From: a virus
Length of the DNA: 35,332 nt
Direction: 5' to 3' (one strand)
IMG/VR virus record: IMGVR_UViG_3300028831_000198
Coordinates: 1 to 35,332 of that record
Shown: one piece after another, positions 3,497 to 15,202 of the stretch
Layout of the letters: each line of letters opens with the position of its first letter
How positions within the stretch are numbered: position 1 is the first letter of the stretch
Notes under the pieces: generated by a model
The model's input: only the letters and a program-made list of their open reading frames with translations
What the model was told of the DNA's origin: nothing
Databases searched by the model: none
Position numbers and translations under genes: made by a program

Positions 3497-4429
3497 ATGA
3501 CAGCACTCGTGATATTCACGATTCTGTTCTTGCTTTTCGTCGCCGCATTCACAGGCTCGCGGAGGCAGAAGCACCCGGAGGACCGGCAGATGGCGGGCGC
3601 AACGGCTGCCGTCCTGCTCGTGCTCACGATCGGCGTCGGTGTGGCGTCCGGCTTCACGCACACGAAGTCGAACGAGATCTCGATCAACCACAACTTCGGC
3701 ACCTATCAGGACACGACCGGACCGGGCATCACCTGGGTCGGCCCGTTCACCCAGTCGGAGAAGTTCTCGACTCGCATCCAGCCCAAGAAGGTCGAGAACC
3801 ACAAGGTCACGCTCAAGGCCGAGAAGGAAGGCGCGGCGGGCGCGTCGGCGCGGATCTGGTACACGCTGCGCTACCACATCGACGGCACCAAGCACGCCGA
3901 GAAGATGTGGCGCCAGTACCGCAACTTCGACAAGGTGACCAAGGATCTGGTCGTGCCCGAGTCGAAGACGGCCGCGTTCGAGGTCTTCGGTCAGTACACC
4001 CCGGCCGAGTCGCAGGCGGGCAGTAACCGCCGCGCACAGGGCGACAAGGTTCGGGACGTGCTGAACGGGGTGCTGTCCGACGACGGGATCGTGATCGACT
4101 CCGTCAACGTCACGACGGTGGACCTCCCCCAGGACGTCGAGGACCGCCTCGCCGCCGTGCAGAAGGCCGCCGCCGACGCGCAGAAGAAGGAGGTCGACGC
4201 CAAGTCTCGCCAGGCGCAGGCCGCCATCGACGCGCAGACCCGACTCGACACCGCCACCAAGGACCGCCAGACGGCGGCCCAGCAGGCAGCGGCTGAGAAG
4301 CTCCGTAAGGGCTCGATCACCCGTGAGAGCCTGGTCGACCGATGCCTGAACATCGCCGAGGCGAAGAACCTCGCGATGCCGTGCAACTTCTGGCTGACCA
4401 ACCAGTACGCGCCCGTTCCGGGGCGTTGA
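3497..4429 (+). CDS. SPFH/band-7 (prohibitin-like) membrane protein
   Basis: A 310-residue protein starting at ATG after the AGGAGAACCC leader. Two hydrophobic segments lie near the N-terminus (about 3-18, FTILFLLFVAAF; about 35-52, TAAVLLVLTIGVGVA), followed by a beta-rich SPFH-like domain (about 58-185, with TTGPGITWVGPF typical of the family start) and a long Ala/Gln/Lys-rich coiled coil (about 205-270). The Cys-containing tail (CLNIAEAKN, AMPCNFW) resembles C-termini of other phage band-7 proteins. SPFH proteins form large membrane-bound oligomeric cages or rafts. In phages the role is not settled; it may organise replication at the membrane or protect the envelope. A hairpin terminator follows. 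Confidence 0.85.
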   Translation: MTALVIFTILFLLFVAAFTGSRRQKHPEDRQMAGATAAVLLVLTIGVGVASGFTHTKSNEISINHNFGTYQDTTGPGITWVGPFTQSEKFSTRIQPKKVENHKVTLKAEKEGAAGASARIWYTLRYHIDGTKHAEKMWRQYRNFDKVTKDLVVPESKTAAFEVFGQYTPAESQAGSNRRAQGDKVRDVLNGVLSDDGIVIDSVNVTTVDLPQDVEDRLAAVQKAAADAQKKEVDAKSRQAQAAIDAQTRLDTATKDRQTAAQQAAAEKLRKGSITRESLVDRCLNIAEAKNLAMPCNFWLTNQYAPVPGR

Positions 4430-6766: not shown

Positions 6767-8032
6767 ATGACCGAAGGTCTGCCGTTCACGGCGTACGCTC
6801 CGGGCACCCGTCTGCCCAGAAACTCGACAGCGCAGTACATCGAGGAGTACGTCGATGACTGCATCGAGGCGGGCCTGGTCCACACGATCCACGTGTCCGA
6901 GCGGCGGGCGTTCCGGAGCTGTCGCCAGCGATGGCACTGGGCCTACGAGGACGACCTGCACTCGATCGAGAGCATCCGGGCGCTGGAGTTCGGCTCGGCG
7001 TACCACAGGGCGATGGAGGTCTTCTACGACCCCGCGACCTGGCACCTGGACAAGTTCGTGCTCCAGGAGCACGCCATCGCCGAGTTCAAGACCTTCACCC
7101 AGGACACCCTGGCGCGGTTCCAGAAGCTCGGCATGGTCGACGAGCGCCTGCTGGCGGACTTCGACGACCGGCTGTCCTCCGGCGAGGCGATGCTCCGGCA
7201 CTACTTCGCCGCCATCGCGCCGATCACCGACACGTTCGAGCCCGTCGAGATCGAGATCGCCTTCGAGGTGCCGCTGCTCGACCCGGACGGCAACTACCTG
7301 CTCTGCAAGTGCGACCGCTGCCGTGCCCGTGTGGCCAGTGTGAATGCCGACCTGTCCGGATGGATTGGACTGCCGGTCACGATCGGTGGGCGGCTGGATG
7401 TCCTGTTCCGGATCCCCGGCACCGACATCCTGGGCGTGCTCGACTGGAAGACGGCCGGAGTCCTGATGAAGGACGAGGAGCTGGAGTTCCTGGAGATGGA
7501 CGACCAGATCTCCACCTACCTGCTGGCCATGCACAAGCTCGGGCTCCCGGCGCGGGAGTTCTGGTACCACGAACAGTGGAAAGCGTCCCCAGAGCCGCCG
7601 GAGCCGTACGCCGGGAACCGCACGATCAAGGGTCGGAAGTACCAGGCCAACAAGCAGCTCGCCACGACCTACGAGCTGTACTACGAGACCGTCTCCGAGG
7701 GAGATCCCGCCGGGCTCGCGGCCGGGGCGTACGACGAGTTCCTGGAGTGGCTGAAGAACGAGGGGCCGCAGTTCTACCAGCGCACGATCGCGGAACGAAA
7801 CGACGCGCAACTGCGGAACACCGAACTGTCGATCTACCTCGAATACCTCGACATGATCTCGGGGCGGATCTACCCGAACCCTTCCCGGAAGCAGTGCACC
7901 TGGTGCAACTTCTTCGACCCCTGCCTCGGCAAGCAGCGCGGCGAGCGGTACCAGCACGCGCTGAACAGCATGTTCGTCAAGGGAGGACGAGAAATGAGTA
8001 ACGACGCCAACCTGCCCAAGGCGGCGCGATGA
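6767..8032 (+). CDS. Cas4/RecB-like PD-(D/E)XK exonuclease with Fe-S cluster
   Basis: A 421-residue nuclease. The N-terminal region has the RecB-family FRSCRQRWHWAY motif with Cys52 and GSAYH (76-80). The catalytic core is GGRLD (Asp211), then LDWKT (Asp226, Lys228), then QISTY (Gln247, Tyr251). The C-terminal CTWCNFFDPC gives Cys377, Cys380 and Cys386, which with Cys52 form the four-Cys iron-sulphur staple known from Cas4 and AddB. An extra CKCDRC (180-185) sits within the domain and may bind zinc. The enzyme probably resects DNA ends for recombination together with the nearby Sak4-like ATPase and ssDNA-binding protein. It is not linked to any CRISPR array here. The end overlaps the next ATG. 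Confidence 0.88.
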   Translation: MTEGLPFTAYAPGTRLPRNSTAQYIEEYVDDCIEAGLVHTIHVSERRAFRSCRQRWHWAYEDDLHSIESIRALEFGSAYHRAMEVFYDPATWHLDKFVLQEHAIAEFKTFTQDTLARFQKLGMVDERLLADFDDRLSSGEAMLRHYFAAIAPITDTFEPVEIEIAFEVPLLDPDGNYLLCKCDRCRARVASVNADLSGWIGLPVTIGGRLDVLFRIPGTDILGVLDWKTAGVLMKDEELEFLEMDDQISTYLLAMHKLGLPAREFWYHEQWKASPEPPEPYAGNRTIKGRKYQANKQLATTYELYYETVSEGDPAGLAAGAYDEFLEWLKNEGPQFYQRTIAERNDAQLRNTELSIYLEYLDMISGRIYPNPSRKQCTWCNFFDPCLGKQRGERYQHALNSMFVKGGREMSNDANLPKAAR

Positions 8033-8322
8033 AGATCGACGGTCACGAAGTAGTCGTTTGCGGGGACTGTGCGTTTCCGGACGGCGAACCGATCATGCAC
8101 GTGATGGCGCCTCTCGGGCCGCCCTGCGAGGAAGTCATGTCGACGATGCGGAAGCAATTGGAGTCCCGCGAGGAATCGGCGGACCAGCGGATCGCCGCGC
8201 AGCTCCGTGAGGACTACTGGGGCACCCTCGGCCACGACCGTGGCCCGTGGAAGGGCGCAAGCGTGGAGTCTCAGCGGGCCTGGCTGCGTGTGGTCAAGCG
8301 CGCTCGGGAGCTGCTCAAGTGA
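8029..8322 (+). CDS. hypothetical protein, 97 aa
   Basis: ATG overlaps the exonuclease stop (ATGA). The product has an early CGDCAFPDG motif and another Cys near residue 35, then a charged helical C-terminal half (ESREESADQRIAAQLRED, RVVKRARELLK). The Cys pair could bind metal, but a complete site is not obvious. The function is unknown. It sits between nuclease and recombinase and is translationally coupled to both. Confidence 0.65.
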   Translation: MKIDGHEVVVCGDCAFPDGEPIMHVMAPLGPPCEEVMSTMRKQLESREESADQRIAAQLREDYWGTLGHDRGPWKGASVESQRAWLRVVKRARELLK

Positions 8323-9137
8323 GCAACGTGATGACGGTCAAGTCGCAGCGGGTCGGCGGGTTGAGCCCACACAAGGTGACCGAGCTGCCGACCACGATCG
8401 ACGCGATGGTCTACGGCCCGCCGAAGTACGGCAAGACGCTGTTCTGCCTGACGGCGCAGGACGTACCCGAGATGGGCAAGTACCTGCACGTCGCCGTCGA
8501 GCCGGGTGAGGAGACGATCCGTGACACCTACCCGGACACCGACGTACTACGTCTCGACCTTTCCGACGACGGCCACTGGTTCGACCGCTACACCGATCAG
8601 TGGGATCGCTTCGACTACATCTACAGCGAGCTTCGCGCAGGTGGTCACGGTTACGGGACCGTCTGCATCGACACCATGGATGCGCTCCAGACCATCAACA
8701 TGGGCGCCATCATGGAGAACACCGACGCCGTGCTTGCCGGTACCCAGGATCCCGACATCCCGTCCAAGCGGGAGTACGGGAAGTCCCGGACCGAGATGAA
8801 GCGCTACATCCGGATGTTCCAGAACCTCCCGATGAACGTGCTCTGGGTCTGCCACAGCACGTCGGAGCAGAACGACCGCACCAAGCGGTGGGAGCGCAAG
8901 CCGATGCTGGTCGGCAAGCTCCAGGACGAGGTCGGGGGCATGGTGAACAACCTGCTCTACTTCTCGATGTACCCGGCCGACAAGAACAACCCCGAACCAC
9001 AGCGGGTGCTCATCACCTCTGCGGACGGGGAGATCCAGGCGGGCACGCGCTCTCGGGTGCTCAACGACATGGGCGAGATCACCGAGCCCACGATGTCCAA
9101 GGTCTGGGGTCCGCTCACCAGCGGCCCCGCCGCCTGA
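8319..9137 (+). CDS. RecA-like (Sak4-type) ATPase / recombinase
   Basis: GTG 8319 overlaps the previous stop; ATG 8331 is an alternative start. The 272-residue protein has Walker A GPPKYGKT (33-40) and Walker B VCIDT (115-119), followed by a sensor-like VLWVCHST strand. Compact RecA-core ATPases of this size with an N-terminal MVYGPPKYGKT strand match the Sak4 single-strand annealing/recombinase group. It should bind ssDNA and promote pairing, assisted by the probable ssDNA-binding protein encoded next. No LexA-like or protease feature is present. Confidence 0.82.
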   Translation: MSNVMTVKSQRVGGLSPHKVTELPTTIDAMVYGPPKYGKTLFCLTAQDVPEMGKYLHVAVEPGEETIRDTYPDTDVLRLDLSDDGHWFDRYTDQWDRFDYIYSELRAGGHGYGTVCIDTMDALQTINMGAIMENTDAVLAGTQDPDIPSKREYGKSRTEMKRYIRMFQNLPMNVLWVCHSTSEQNDRTKRWERKPMLVGKLQDEVGGMVNNLLYFSMYPADKNNPEPQRVLITSADGEIQAGTRSRVLNDMGEITEPTMSKVWGPLTSGPAA

Positions 9138-9802: not shown

Positions 9803-12106
9803 TTGAACGTTGATCTACTCCCGTTCTTCACGGGCGTGTACGGAACCGGGGTTCCGGACCAAGAGCGCTTCATGTGCGTGGCGTATCTGCGCCCCGGCGG
9901 CAAGATGATCGAGCGCTACTTCCGATGGCCTGAGCAGGCGCCGATCGCGATCAAGCTGATCGAAGCCCTGTCGCAGCCGGGGCGTTCGTCCGACGTCTAC
10001 TACTGCGTCAGTCTTTTGACGGGCCAAAAGCGCAACCGCGACTTCCTCGACGAGACGCACTGCGTCTGGGCCGACCTGGACAACACCTCCCCGAACAAGC
10101 TGCACATCGAGCCGACGTTCCTGATCGAGACCTCCCCGAGCCGCTATCAGGCCATCTGGACTCTCAGCGAACCCATCCCGTACGCCACGGCCGAAGACTT
10201 CGCCCGGCGCGTCTACCACGAACACCGCAAGGACGGCGCGGACGCGACCTGGGACGCCACACGCCTGCTGCGCGTGCCCGGCACGATCAACCACAAGTAC
10301 GAGATCCCTGGTCAGGGCCACCCGATCGTCGACCTGGTGATCCAGCGCTCCGTTCAGTACGACCTGGACGAGTTCGACGCCGCCTACCCGATCAGCATCT
10401 CCGAGGGGCCGGGCGCCAGCCAGTCGGTCGTGCTCGACTACGACCAGGTCAGCCACGTCGGCACGATGCCGGAGATCATCAGCCGGTACCAGCGGGAGTT
10501 GGACCCCGACCTCCAGGACTTGATCTTCACGCCGACCGCGCCGGACCACCCCTCGTGGTCGCACCGGCTGTGGGCGCTGGAGATGGGCCTCTTCGAGCTG
10601 GGCATGGACATCTACGAGGTGTTCGTCGTCGTCCGGGACTCCGGCTGCAACAAGTACGAACGCGACGGCCGCCCCGAAGCCGACCTGTGGAAAGAGATCG
10701 TCCGAGCGCGCGAGAGCGTCGAACGCCGGTCCGGGATGGTCCTCACGACCACCGAGATCGAAGAGATCGACATCATGACGCCGGAGGAGATCCAGGAGGT
10801 CCAGCAGCAGCCCCTCGGCTTCATCGAGCGGTACCAGGAGTGGGCGACCACACGGACGGACGCACCCCGGGAGTTCCACATCGGCGGCGCGCTCATGGCC
10901 TTGTCGTCGACCCTGAGCAGCAAGCTGATGATCGCCACCAAGTTCGGCGACGTGAAGCCGAACATCTGGGTGATGCTGCTGGCCGACTCCACGATCTCCC
11001 GCAAGACGACCTCGATGCGCCTGTCTATGGAGATCACCGAAGCTGCCGGGGTCGACGCCCTGCTGGCCACAGACGGCTCGATCGAGGGTCTGCTCACGGA
11101 GCTGGCCGCTCGCGAGGGCGTGCCCAGCGTGTTCATGCGGGACGAGTTCACGTCCCTGGTCGAGGGGGCGAAGAAGAAGGACTACATGTCCGGCTTCCTC
11201 ACCGACCTCTGTGGTCTGTACGACGGCGGCCGGATCAAGCGGCGCCTGCGCAAGGAGACCATCCAGGCCCGAGACCCTGTGTTCCTGATGTTCGCGGGCG
11301 GTGTGGAGACCCGGCTGCTCGACATCCTCGGGCACGAGGACATCACGTCCGGCTTCATCCCCCGGTTCCTGCCGATCTTCGGTCGCACCTCGATCTCCGA
11401 GCTGGACCTGATCGGGCCGCGCCGCAAGCGCTCTCACGCGGCCAGGGACGCTCTGGTGACGGAGTTGGTCCGGATCGCGGAGCTGTACACCCCGGCCAAG
11501 CCGGTCCTGACCGTCCCCGGTCCAGACCTGACCATCACCCAGCCGATCATCGAGGCGGACCTGTCCGAGGCCGCCTGGAACCGGCTCCAGGTAGCCCAGC
11601 GCTACCTGCTCGACCTGGCCCAGGAGCACGACAGCCGGGATCTGCTGCTGCCCTGCACCGAACGACTGGTCGTCAACGTCCTCAAGGTCGCGTTGCTGAT
11701 CGCGGCCAGCCGCCAGCGGCCTGTGGTCAACGAGACCATCACCATCGAATACGACGACCTGATGATGAGCCTGTACTACGCACGCGGCTGGCTCGACCAC
11801 CTGCTGCGGATCGTGACCCGCATCGGCCGTGACCCGTTCGACGGCCAGACCCAGAAGATCCTGGAGTTCGTCACCTACGCCGGGGACAGCGGGACCACAC
11901 GCGGCGCGATCATGCGGAACTTCCGGATGTCCTCCCGGGACGCCGACGAGATCCTGTCCACCCTGCTCGACCGCGAGGAGGTCGTCGCCGACGGCGGCAA
12001 GGGAGTGACCGGCCGGGGCGCGGTATACCGGGCCACACAGCACGCGCGAACTGCCAAGCAAGTGCGCGTGGCGACACCAATACAGGTGCGCCGATCCCAC
12101 CGATAG
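9803..12106 (+). CDS. primase/helicase: AEP-like primase fused to DUF3987-type ATPase
   Basis: TTG start with strong GAGGGAGG ribosome-binding site; 767 residues. The N-terminal region looks like an archaeo-eukaryotic primase-polymerase: WADLDN (Asp91, Asp93) as metal site, SPSRYQAIW (111-119), and DATRLLRVPGTINHK (151-165), a motif shared with phage and plasmid AEP primases. The middle and C-terminal part (from about residue 340) resembles DUF3987 helicases, with a degenerate Walker A-like LLADSTISRKTTS near 391-403 and an MRDEFTSL segment as motif II. A winged-helix-like tail (about 685-745) follows. It probably primes and unwinds at the phage fork. The replaced Gly in the P-loop makes ATPase activity uncertain. 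Confidence 0.8.
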   Translation: MNVDLLPFFTGVYGTGVPDQERFMCVAYLRPGGKMIERYFRWPEQAPIAIKLIEALSQPGRSSDVYYCVSLLTGQKRNRDFLDETHCVWADLDNTSPNKLHIEPTFLIETSPSRYQAIWTLSEPIPYATAEDFARRVYHEHRKDGADATWDATRLLRVPGTINHKYEIPGQGHPIVDLVIQRSVQYDLDEFDAAYPISISEGPGASQSVVLDYDQVSHVGTMPEIISRYQRELDPDLQDLIFTPTAPDHPSWSHRLWALEMGLFELGMDIYEVFVVVRDSGCNKYERDGRPEADLWKEIVRARESVERRSGMVLTTTEIEEIDIMTPEEIQEVQQQPLGFIERYQEWATTRTDAPREFHIGGALMALSSTLSSKLMIATKFGDVKPNIWVMLLADSTISRKTTSMRLSMEITEAAGVDALLATDGSIEGLLTELAAREGVPSVFMRDEFTSLVEGAKKKDYMSGFLTDLCGLYDGGRIKRRLRKETIQARDPVFLMFAGGVETRLLDILGHEDITSGFIPRFLPIFGRTSISELDLIGPRRKRSHAARDALVTELVRIAELYTPAKPVLTVPGPDLTITQPIIEADLSEAAWNRLQVAQRYLLDLAQEHDSRDLLLPCTERLVVNVLKVALLIAASRQRPVVNETITIEYDDLMMSLYYARGWLDHLLRIVTRIGRDPFDGQTQKILEFVTYAGDSGTTRGAIMRNFRMSSRDADEILSTLLDREEVVADGGKGVTGRGAVYRATQHARTAKQVRVATPIQVRRSHR

Positions 12107-12375: not shown

Positions 12376-12620
12376 TGAGCGACAACCCGGACCGCGTCGG
12401 TGTGGCCATCGAGTTCACCCCGCTCGAAGACGCCTTCGAGCTGGACGTGAAGGTGCTCAACCTTGGAGACCCGGACGACCCGGAGGTGGTCGAGCGCGTC
12501 ACCTATCTGATCGCTCTGGCCCTCGCCTCGTACGCCCCAGGGATGCTCAAGGACGAGGTGCGTGAGGAGCTGCTGAAGCCCTTCGATGTGGTCGACACGG
12601 AGGCTGAGCAGAATGGTTGA
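12375..12620 (+). CDS. hypothetical protein, 81 aa
   Basis: ATG overlaps the preceding stop. The acidic 81-residue product (FELDVKVLNLGDPDDPEVVE, then a helix LIALALASYAPGMLKDE) has no known motif. Its general plan, a beta strand pair then a helix, resembles the neighbours on both sides, so the three may be distant paralogues; this is inference from shape only. Confidence 0.62.
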   Translation: MSDNPDRVGVAIEFTPLEDAFELDVKVLNLGDPDDPEVVERVTYLIALALASYAPGMLKDEVREELLKPFDVVDTEAEQNG

Positions 12621-12822
12621 CGCGCCCCTCTGGCGCGTCGAAGTCACATTGACGTTGGAGGGTGGAACGAAAATTGCGTTCCACCATTCCATTCCCGATC
12701 TGGAACTCCATCGTCTCTACGAAGCGCCTGACCAATTGATCGCTTCCATCGCCGAAGAGGCGTACGAACAGATTCAGAAGAAGAGGCTTGGCATTGGTGG
12801 AACGCAAGCATCCGCTGGCTAA
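12613..12822 (+). CDS. hypothetical protein, 69 aa
   Basis: ATG at 12613 overlaps the previous gene by 8 bases; an upstream start at 12586 would add nine residues inside that gene. The product starts with amphipathic strands (WRVEVTLTLEGGTKIAFHH) and continues as a helix ending QIQKKRLGIGG. It overlaps the start of the polymerase gene by about 26 bases. The function is unknown. Confidence 0.6.
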   Translation: MVDAPLWRVEVTLTLEGGTKIAFHHSIPDLELHRLYEAPDQLIASIAEEAYEQIQKKRLGIGGTQASAG

Positions 12823-15202
12823 GTGTGAGGAGTGCCCCCTCTACTTGGAAACCGGTCCCGTGCTGGGGACCGGCCCGGAGGGCGCGGTCAAAGTGGCCGT
12901 CGTCGGAGAGGCTCCGGGGTTCCAAGAGGCGACGGTTGGGCGGCCCTTCGTGGGGCCGTCCGGCCTCGTCCTCAACGAGGTGCTCCGCAACAACGACATC
13001 GACCGCAAGGACGTGTGGGCCACCAACGCGGTGGCCTGCCGTCCGAAGGACAACGCCACACCGACTCAGGACGCGATCGACGCGTGCAAGCCGCGTCTGA
13101 TGGCGGAGCTGTCCGCGCACAACCCCGACTACGTCCTGGCTACCGGCGCCGTCGCTGCGAAGGCGCTGGGGTTGAAGGGCGCGATGCAAAACCTGCGTGT
13201 CGGGCCTCCACGCGACGTCATCATCCCGACCGATTGCACGGAATGCGACTGTGAGATGCACACGCTGGTCGTGCCTACTTGGCACCCGGCGTACACGATG
13301 CGTCTGCCGGACGCGATCGTGTCGCTCGACTTCGACGTCTCCAAGATCAACAAGGGAACGAACTCCGAGCGGTACTCCGAGCCGACGCTCACGGTGTTGG
13401 ATGACCGGCTGACCGCTCTGGACGCGATTCACGATCTCTGGCGAATCCCGGGGCCGTGGTCGGTCGACATCGAGACCGGCGTCGACAAGGACGACATCGA
13501 CCTGCACGCCGACCAGCGCCCGCTGCTCTGCATCGGGGTCGGCTACGAGCCCGGCAAGGTCGCGGTGTTCGGCAAGAACGTCATGGACGACAAGGCCGTG
13601 CTGGAAGCGTTGGGTGGGCTGTTCCGCAAGCGCGACCTGATCATGCACAACGGCAAGTCCGACGTCGCCGGTCTGCTCCCGGTCATGGGACAGGTCAAGC
13701 TGCGGTACGACACGATGCTGGAGCACTACACGCTCGACGAGCGCACCGGCGGGCACTCGCTAGGCCAGCTCGGGATCGAGCTGATCGGCACACCGGACTG
13801 GAAGACGATGGTCAAGCCGTACCTGAAGAAGGGCAAGGAGAAGAACTTCGCCGACATCCCGGCCGAACTGCTCTACCGGTACAACGCGATCGACTGCGAC
13901 GTCACGTACAAGCTCCACCAACGCTTCTGGCCGGAGCTGGAGCGCCAGGGCCGGACGAAGGCCCACGACCACATGGTCCGCGCGGCGAACCAGCTCGTGT
14001 ACGCCGAGATGGACGGCATCGCGTTCGACCTGCCGTACTCGATGGACCTGACCACACGCCTCCAGGCGGAGATCGACGCGGTCGAGAAGGGCATGGCCGA
14101 GCTGGTCGGCCGGGAGATCAACCCCCGATCTAGCCAACAGCTCATCCGGCTGTTCCAGGACCATGGTTGGTACGTGCCGACCGGTAAGGAGCGGAAGCCG
14201 ACCACAGAGGCGAAGGCGATCAAGCGTGCCCTGGCCGACGGCCGGTACGACTCCTCCCCCGCCGCGCAGGAGTTCATCACCCGGCTCTTCGAGGCGCGCG
14301 ACCTGAGCAAGGACGACGGCACGTACGTACGGGGGATGCAAAACCGGGTCCACCTCGCCGACGACGGTGTGGCCCGCATTCACACCACGTTCACGCTGCA
14401 CGTCACGACCACAGGCCGTCTCTCGTCCAAGGATCCGAACCTCCAGAACATCAAGGACAAGGATTACCTGCGTCGGCAATTCGTGGCCGCGCCCGGCAAC
14501 ATCTTCCTCCAGGGGGACTACAGCCAGATCGAAGGACGCGTCATTGCCGTCCTCTCTGGTGACCCGTATTTGCAGAGCCTGTTCCTCGATACAGAGCGCG
14601 ACATCTTCGATGAATTGTCAATCGCGCTGTACGGCAAATTGATTAAGGAGAAGCGACGGCTACTCAAGACATTCTTCTACGGATTGTCATACGGAAGGAC
14701 GGCTCATGGCATTGCCAAGGATCCCGAGTTCCGCATGGAAGTAGACGACGCCCAACGCCAGCTCGATCAGTTCAAGGAGCTGATCCCGGGCGTGATGGAG
14801 TGGCAGGAGAAGACCTGGCAGACCGTTCAGGACCAGGGCTACCTGGAGACGACGTTCGGTCGACGCCGACACTTCCCGCTGATCACGAACCGGAACAAGG
14901 ATGACGTCCGGAACGAGGCGCTGGCGTTCGTACCCCAGAGCACCGCGTCCGACATCTGCCTGAGCGCGTTCGTTCAGCTCCGCCCGGCCCTGGAGTCGTA
15001 CTTCGACGACTCCGCACGCATCCGGCTCACGATCCATGACGCGATCGTGACGGAGGTGCGGGAAGATCTGGTTGTACCCGTTGGTGACCTCCAAGCGAAG
15101 ATCATGGAGACAGCGGGCAACTGGTGGGCTCGGGAGCAGCACTCGGACGTGCCGTTCAAGGTCGCGTTCAAGCGCGGCACGAGCTGGGACCAGTTGGACT
15201 AA
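12797..15202 (+). CDS. family-4 uracil-DNA glycosylase fused to family-A DNA polymerase
   Basis: GTG 12797 is favoured by AGAGG ten bases upstream; TTG 12794 or 12788 are alternatives. The 801-residue protein begins with a family-4 UDG domain: CEEC (Cys10, Cys13), GEAPGFQE (38-44), GRPFVGPSG (48-56), Cys81, Cys97 (a 4Fe-4S pattern) and WHPAY (162-166). A 3'-5' exonuclease follows with Asp224/Glu226, HNGKSD (284-289) and YNAID (362-366). The polymerase domain has motif A DYSQIE (Asp574), motif B Arg620, Lys624, Tyr628 and YG 632-633, and motif C HDA (747-749). It should replicate phage DNA with proofreading. The Glu of motif C is replaced by Ala, and Tyr occupies the position of E. coli Phe762. 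Confidence 0.93.
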   Translation: MERKHPLAKCEECPLYLETGPVLGTGPEGAVKVAVVGEAPGFQEATVGRPFVGPSGLVLNEVLRNNDIDRKDVWATNAVACRPKDNATPTQDAIDACKPRLMAELSAHNPDYVLATGAVAAKALGLKGAMQNLRVGPPRDVIIPTDCTECDCEMHTLVVPTWHPAYTMRLPDAIVSLDFDVSKINKGTNSERYSEPTLTVLDDRLTALDAIHDLWRIPGPWSVDIETGVDKDDIDLHADQRPLLCIGVGYEPGKVAVFGKNVMDDKAVLEALGGLFRKRDLIMHNGKSDVAGLLPVMGQVKLRYDTMLEHYTLDERTGGHSLGQLGIELIGTPDWKTMVKPYLKKGKEKNFADIPAELLYRYNAIDCDVTYKLHQRFWPELERQGRTKAHDHMVRAANQLVYAEMDGIAFDLPYSMDLTTRLQAEIDAVEKGMAELVGREINPRSSQQLIRLFQDHGWYVPTGKERKPTTEAKAIKRALADGRYDSSPAAQEFITRLFEARDLSKDDGTYVRGMQNRVHLADDGVARIHTTFTLHVTTTGRLSSKDPNLQNIKDKDYLRRQFVAAPGNIFLQGDYSQIEGRVIAVLSGDPYLQSLFLDTERDIFDELSIALYGKLIKEKRRLLKTFFYGLSYGRTAHGIAKDPEFRMEVDDAQRQLDQFKELIPGVMEWQEKTWQTVQDQGYLETTFGRRRHFPLITNRNKDDVRNEALAFVPQSTASDICLSAFVQLRPALESYFDDSARIRLTIHDAIVTEVREDLVVPVGDLQAKIMETAGNWWAREQHSDVPFKVAFKRGTSWDQLD

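Follow-up and report, generated by a model that had tools for sequence, protein, structure and literature searches.

The window analysed here, a 35,332-base virus record, has most of its tail and capsid genes on the minus strand. On the plus strand, genes for a SNF2-type helicase, a PD-(D/E)XK nuclease, a Sak4-like protein and a primase precede a DNA polymerase gene with a uracil-DNA glycosylase (UDG) domain at its N-terminus. A gene for an SPFH/Band 7 protein (PF01145, window 3497-4429) is also found among the phage replication genes. The features considered below are as follows.

6767..8032, plus strand: PD-(D/E)XK exonuclease
8247..9137, plus strand: Sak4-like AAA recombination protein
9803..12106, plus strand: primase/DUF3987 replication protein, in the same direction as the polymerase
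12586..12822, plus strand: small ORF of 78 aa just upstream, which overlaps with the beginning of the fusion gene
12797..15202, plus strand: UDG - 3'-5' exonuclease - family-A DNA polymerase fusion, 801 aa (frame, Pfam, NCBIfam, AF2)
12797..13366, plus strand: Fe-S family-4-like UDG domain, residues 1-190 (Pfam/NCBIfam, phmmer, AF2, Foldseek)
12824..12835, plus strand: CxxC with Cys10 and Cys13, first Fe-S ligand pair, invariant in 68 fused proteins and 80 standalone UDGs
12905..12919, plus strand: motif 1/A, GEAPG (37-41) with Glu38, in agreement with motif A of PMC10359453
13025..13039, plus strand: motif 3, with Asn77, Ala80 replacing the family-4 Lys, and the Fe-S ligand Cys81 (alignment, PMC10776899)
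13085..13087, plus strand: Cys97, fourth Fe-S ligand (alignment)
13235..13252, plus strand: CTECDC (147-152), in a loop that is not conserved and is flanked by strands 139-144 and 153-161 (models, alignment)
13280..13294, plus strand: motif 2/B, WHPAY (162-166) with His163 (alignment)
13439..13951, plus strand: 3'-5' proofreading exonuclease, residues 215-385, with D224, E226, D289 and D366 (Pfam, alignment)
13952..15199, plus strand: family-A polymerase domain, residues 386-801, with D574, K624 and D748 (Pfam, alignment)

As the sequence-only reading had proposed, the domains are joined in one frame: window 12797-15202 is free of stops on the plus strand over 801 aa. Third-position GC was 0.71-0.95 in all 80-codon blocks of the gene and, among the in-frame starts beyond residue 33 and up to residue 419, only GTG 257 showed an SD-like match, which was poor and lay within the exonuclease; thus, no frameshift and no clear start site interrupts the frame between the domains, and both ways of splitting the UDG from the polymerase were ruled out. 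The candidate start codons of the gene itself are GTG 12797 and TTG 12788 or 12794. The fusion is not an assembly accident, since the 66%-identical phage L002 and dozens more carry the same one.

Pfam matched both the UDG (residues 24-172, E 2.7e-25) and the DNA_pol_A (417-798, 9.6e-70) families foreseen by that reading, plus DNA_pol_A_exo1 (264-382, 1.4e-8), while the NCBIfam type-4 UDG model matched residues 7-185 (6.9e-32) and PHROG_17 covered residues 31-798 as one uninterrupted match. The proofreading family-A polymerase is complete, as had been claimed, with the exonuclease D/E/D/D residues and all the polymerase catalytic residues present, both sets being invariant in 68 aligned fused proteins. 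Tyr628 (window 14678-14680), which we take to correspond to Phe762 of E. coli Pol I, is a tyrosine as in T7 polymerase, and would predict ready dideoxynucleotide use by this enzyme. AlphaFold2 gave a confident three-domain model of the full-length protein (pLDDT 94, pTM 0.92) and, for the UDG domain alone, a UDG fold (pLDDT 90) with family-4 structures as nearest neighbours. The best Foldseek match of the latter was T. maritima UDG 1l9g (5.3e-16), and the model resembled the family-4 UDGs of T. maritima, S. tokodaii and T. thermophilus as well as UdgX; phmmer also matched the domain to 1l9g (9.7e-27), with UdgX among the best solved relatives. With the whole model, several viral polymerases reached TMq values of 0.77-0.82, versus 0.65 for Klenow, which suggests that the modelled domain arrangement is shared with them.

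The four Fe-S cysteines (10, 13, 81 and 97) and the GEAPG and WHPAY motifs noticed before were all found in the sequence. In these, in the motif-3 Asn, in the HPA of motif 2 and in fold, the domain is like the family-4 UDGs T. maritima TM0511 and T. thermophilus UDGa (GE(A/G)PG being the family-4 form of motif 1). However, those enzymes are standalone and keep a motif-3 Lys that is Ala80 here, and the window protein also fell below the curated type-4 cut-offs (110 of 250 bits for NF040953 and 105.9 of 125.3 for TIGR00758). Judged by sequence, the domain is thus family-4-like but diverged, and not a canonical family-4 member. Substitutions F65A, N91A, K94A and H178A abolish the activity of UdgX and E52A strongly reduces it (PMC10776899), E52 being conserved in family 4 (PMC10359453). 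Four of these five key residues are matched in the window (Glu38, Phe51, Asn77 and His163), and the fifth, UdgX Lys94 or Tth UDGa Lys83, corresponds to Ala80. Comparison with characterised enzymes therefore upheld the proposed active site except for the motif-3 Lys, and the uracil pocket looks mostly, but not wholly, intact. Position 80 was Lys in 80 of 80 sampled standalone bacterial and archaeal UDGs; these were picked by a pattern around HPA, so that HPA counts in the set are biased, but position 80 lay outside the pattern. In view of this, excision by the window domain may be weak, absent or altered in specificity. The motif-3 Lys is not needed by every active UDG, however, since E. coli Ung, an active family-1 enzyme, reads N-T-V-L in motif 3 and has Leu at this position. 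UdgX differs further in its R-loop KRRIH with His109, its motif-3 insertion and its GEQPG in place of GEAPG; UdgX-type cross-linking was excluded by the absence of the R-loop. The extra Cys group noticed at 147-152 (CTECDC) is really present, but it lies in a variable loop and is missing in L002 and other relatives, and a second metal site there was discarded because the group is not conserved.

The architecture is already known, and it is more widespread than the first reading, which had only supposed that similar fusions might exist, could judge: it is common in phages and published (SPO1 gp31; PaBG gp205, PMC7412058). We found it in at least about 79 further viral contigs and in several isolates, namely Brevundimonas phage MaInes, Serratia phage Serbin, Pseudomonas phage PMBT14, Microbacterium phage Huwbert and SPO1, and also in Bacillus phage BSP7, where it is split by annotation. 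The viral contigs were scanned with exonuclease-region patterns, and at least 554 candidate stretches encode a relative; among the best 80 of these loci practically all non-truncated ones include an in-frame UDG part, which is no estimate of frequency because the ranking favoured full-length matches. In all, 68 fused proteins could be aligned full-length with that of the window (28-67% identity). No full-length fusion appeared among the best 80 loci of bacterial genomes (prophages), where the longest ORF was of 614 aa. In MaInes (L003:4554-6872), genes of a 7-deazaguanine pathway lie directly upstream of the fusion.

Jumbo phage PaBG gp205, described in 2020 and for which its authors suggest precise replication, has this architecture, and phage sequences close to its UDG domain were reported to be absent outside its group (PMC7412058). 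Beyond that paper, no direct description of the fusion was found in the literature searched. By architecture, PaBG gp205 and the Lupandier phages are like the window (N-terminal UDG followed by 3'-5' exonuclease and 5'-3' polymerase), although these are jumbo phages. SPO1 gp31 also carries a UDG N-terminal to a family-A polymerase (7.2e-28 for its N-terminus against Tth UDGa), but it has lost the Fe-S cysteines and shows QENPF for GEAPG and Ser for the Asn. PDB entries for UdgX are labelled 'Phage SPO1 DNA polymerase-related protein', so the link is an old one. Among solved structures, the chain of the phiLo family-A DNA polymerase (PDB 9qhs) matched the UDG domain model (prob 1.00, 2.6e-7), a likeness of fold in a chain of 1142 aa with about 23% identity. 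Pseudomonas phage nickie (L169:1121-4513) also has a UDG domain fused to its replicative polymerase, but there the domain, with degenerate motifs, is attached to the C-terminal end of a DnaE-type Pol III alpha, which points to a separate fusion event.

We then considered conservation in an alignment of 88 rows comprising the window, its fused relatives and the SPO1 N-terminus. The Fe-S cysteines were kept in 84-86 rows, E38 in 72, F51 in 78, N77 in 81 and H163 in 79, whereas position 80 was L in 52, S in 11, Q in 7, K in 6 and A in 5; the motif-3 Lys is thus gone, with Leu, Ser, Gln or Ala instead, in nearly all close fused relatives. The accompanying Fisher value disregards relatedness and is not to be read as a probability. 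Of 77 rows, 64 kept the whole Glu/Asn/His triad and 13 had it altered, with at least five changes on the tree of the exonuclease plus polymerase, so excision is dispensable in some phages. One group (L071, L074, L075, L078, L079, L080 and L087) has (S/A)R for the GE of motif 1 and Asn for the His of motif 2, and is predicted to be devoid of normal uracil excision. Other relatives depart from the common plan: L069:3527-8274 has tandem UDG-polA genes, one with GEAPG, TN and HPA and the other with GEFPS, TT and HPI; the fusion at L033:2324-5617 contains an intein (Intein_splicing and LAGLIDADG_2 matches) at the equivalent of Cys81; and that at L049:3057-6212 has an insertion of about 250-300 aa near the UDG end (query residues 168-179), with no Pfam intein match.

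The triad was lost repeatedly while the Fe-S fold stayed, which argues that all these proteins share a further role that is non-catalytic. As the main rival to uracil surveillance, the domain could be chiefly a DNA-binding or processivity module with the pocket as a relic or a base-flipping scanner, a reading that we regard as possible but rather unlikely. It would agree with the nearly invariant cysteines, with the loss of the motif-3 Lys and with the UDG fold that SPO1, Serbin, PMBT14, Huwbert and nickie retain despite their degenerate motifs. Vaccinia D4 UDG is a separate protein that bridges to a family-B polymerase and is not known to carry an Fe-S cluster. It provides a precedent as a processivity factor that is part of the viral replicase (PMC10253040), but D4 still has glycosylase activity. 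Moreover, E38, F51, N77 and H163, unnecessary for pure DNA binding, are almost fixed in the clade of the window (44 proteins). In this clade, entropy was 0 at C10, C13, C81 and C97 and 0.16 at E38, F51, N77, H163 and R169, versus a UDG mean of 1.65, and the pocket residues ranked within the top 26 of 180 UDG columns. The UDG part is conserved as strongly as the polymerase, with identities to the window for UDG, exonuclease and polymerase of 0.68, 0.67 and 0.68 in L002 and of 0.47, 0.46 and 0.43 in L013. Such purifying selection on the pocket argues for uracil recognition in the lineage of the window.

Against excision stands the fact that an abasic site in a single-stranded template would block the same polymerase. 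Archaeal family-B polymerases recognise uracil by reading ahead, and a sensor of this kind, in which the domain would read template uracil and stall the polymerase with no excision, would avoid template abasic sites and fit the conservation of the uracil-binding F51, N77 and H163 next to the loss of a lysine essential in UdgX. We consider it improbable: the clade retains E38, a residue tied to the chemistry of UdgX (PMC10359453), and the Leu of active Ung indicates that loss of the Lys need not end chemistry.

The gene context did not support the earlier idea of a genome exploiting uracil. No thymidylate synthase (TS)-family gene was found in 37 IMG/VR records (the window, a close relative and 35 others) and a dUTPase in only one of the 37, window included; AP_endonuc_2 (PF01261), the one AP endonuclease family searched, was absent from 42 records that included these 37. 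Many records are fragments, so absence in any single one is weak evidence. Whole-record searches showed one UDG per record, the fused one, except for the two of L069. No association of this lineage with uracil or modified-pyrimidine metabolism was found in the IMG/VR records tested, nor, in the 42 records, any phage-encoded base-excision pathway with a PF01261 AP endonuclease. It is very doubtful that the domain, in phages whose DNA is altered, targets another base such as hypoxanthine or a modified pyrimidine. Motif 3 is remodelled, and the divergent or degenerate UDGs of SPO1 (which has a dUMP hydroxymethylase), Serbin, PMBT14 and Huwbert co-occur with TS-family or dUMP-hydroxymethylase genes, but the window and the other IMG/VR records tested have no TS-family gene. 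The link is not clean either: TS is missing from the E-to-R, H-to-N group too, and the triad is intact in ctfzr933, which does carry a TS-family gene.

We believe, with moderate confidence, that this gene encodes the probable replicative DNA polymerase of a tailed phage with a built-in uracil-surveillance domain. Most likely, the UDG domain works as a built-in component of the replicase, inspecting DNA for uracil and probably excising it. According to the model and the whole-length matches to phage polymerases, the domain would sit at a fixed position beside the polymerase core, where it could bind template or newly made DNA and flip out uracil arising from cytosine deamination or dUMP incorporation. 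The uracil would then most likely be excised by the domain, and host enzymes would complete the repair, since the phages have no AP endonuclease of the AP_endonuc_2 family. The Fe-S fold may double as a module by which the polymerase permanently binds DNA, and its survival beyond the catalytic residues in several related lineages would then be explained. The two roles are compatible: the replicase would have a DNA-binding module which, in the lineage of the window, would also recognise and probably remove uracil.

Three observations are apparently new, in that we found none of them in the literature searched, although they may have been published elsewhere: the clade-wide replacement of the motif-3 lysine, the invariant Fe-S site versus the variable triad, and the separate UDG fusion to a DnaE-type polymerase in nickie. 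Quite tentatively, the remodelled UDG of a large clade of phage replicases, with the pocket residues kept and the motif-3 lysine replaced, might read uracil in line or act as a tethered glycosylase that works slowly and is coupled to polymerisation, with a chemistry unlike that of free family-4 UDGs. In laboratory use, UDG-fused polymerases could also differ in their behaviour when given uracil-containing DNA. The relatives offer a natural comparison series, with the pocket intact, the lysine lost, the triad lost, or intact and degenerate copies in tandem in one phage. In these phages the enzyme that copies the DNA has its own base-excision domain, and knowing if that domain cuts DNA, reads it or simply holds it would reveal how a replicase handles uracil at the fork.
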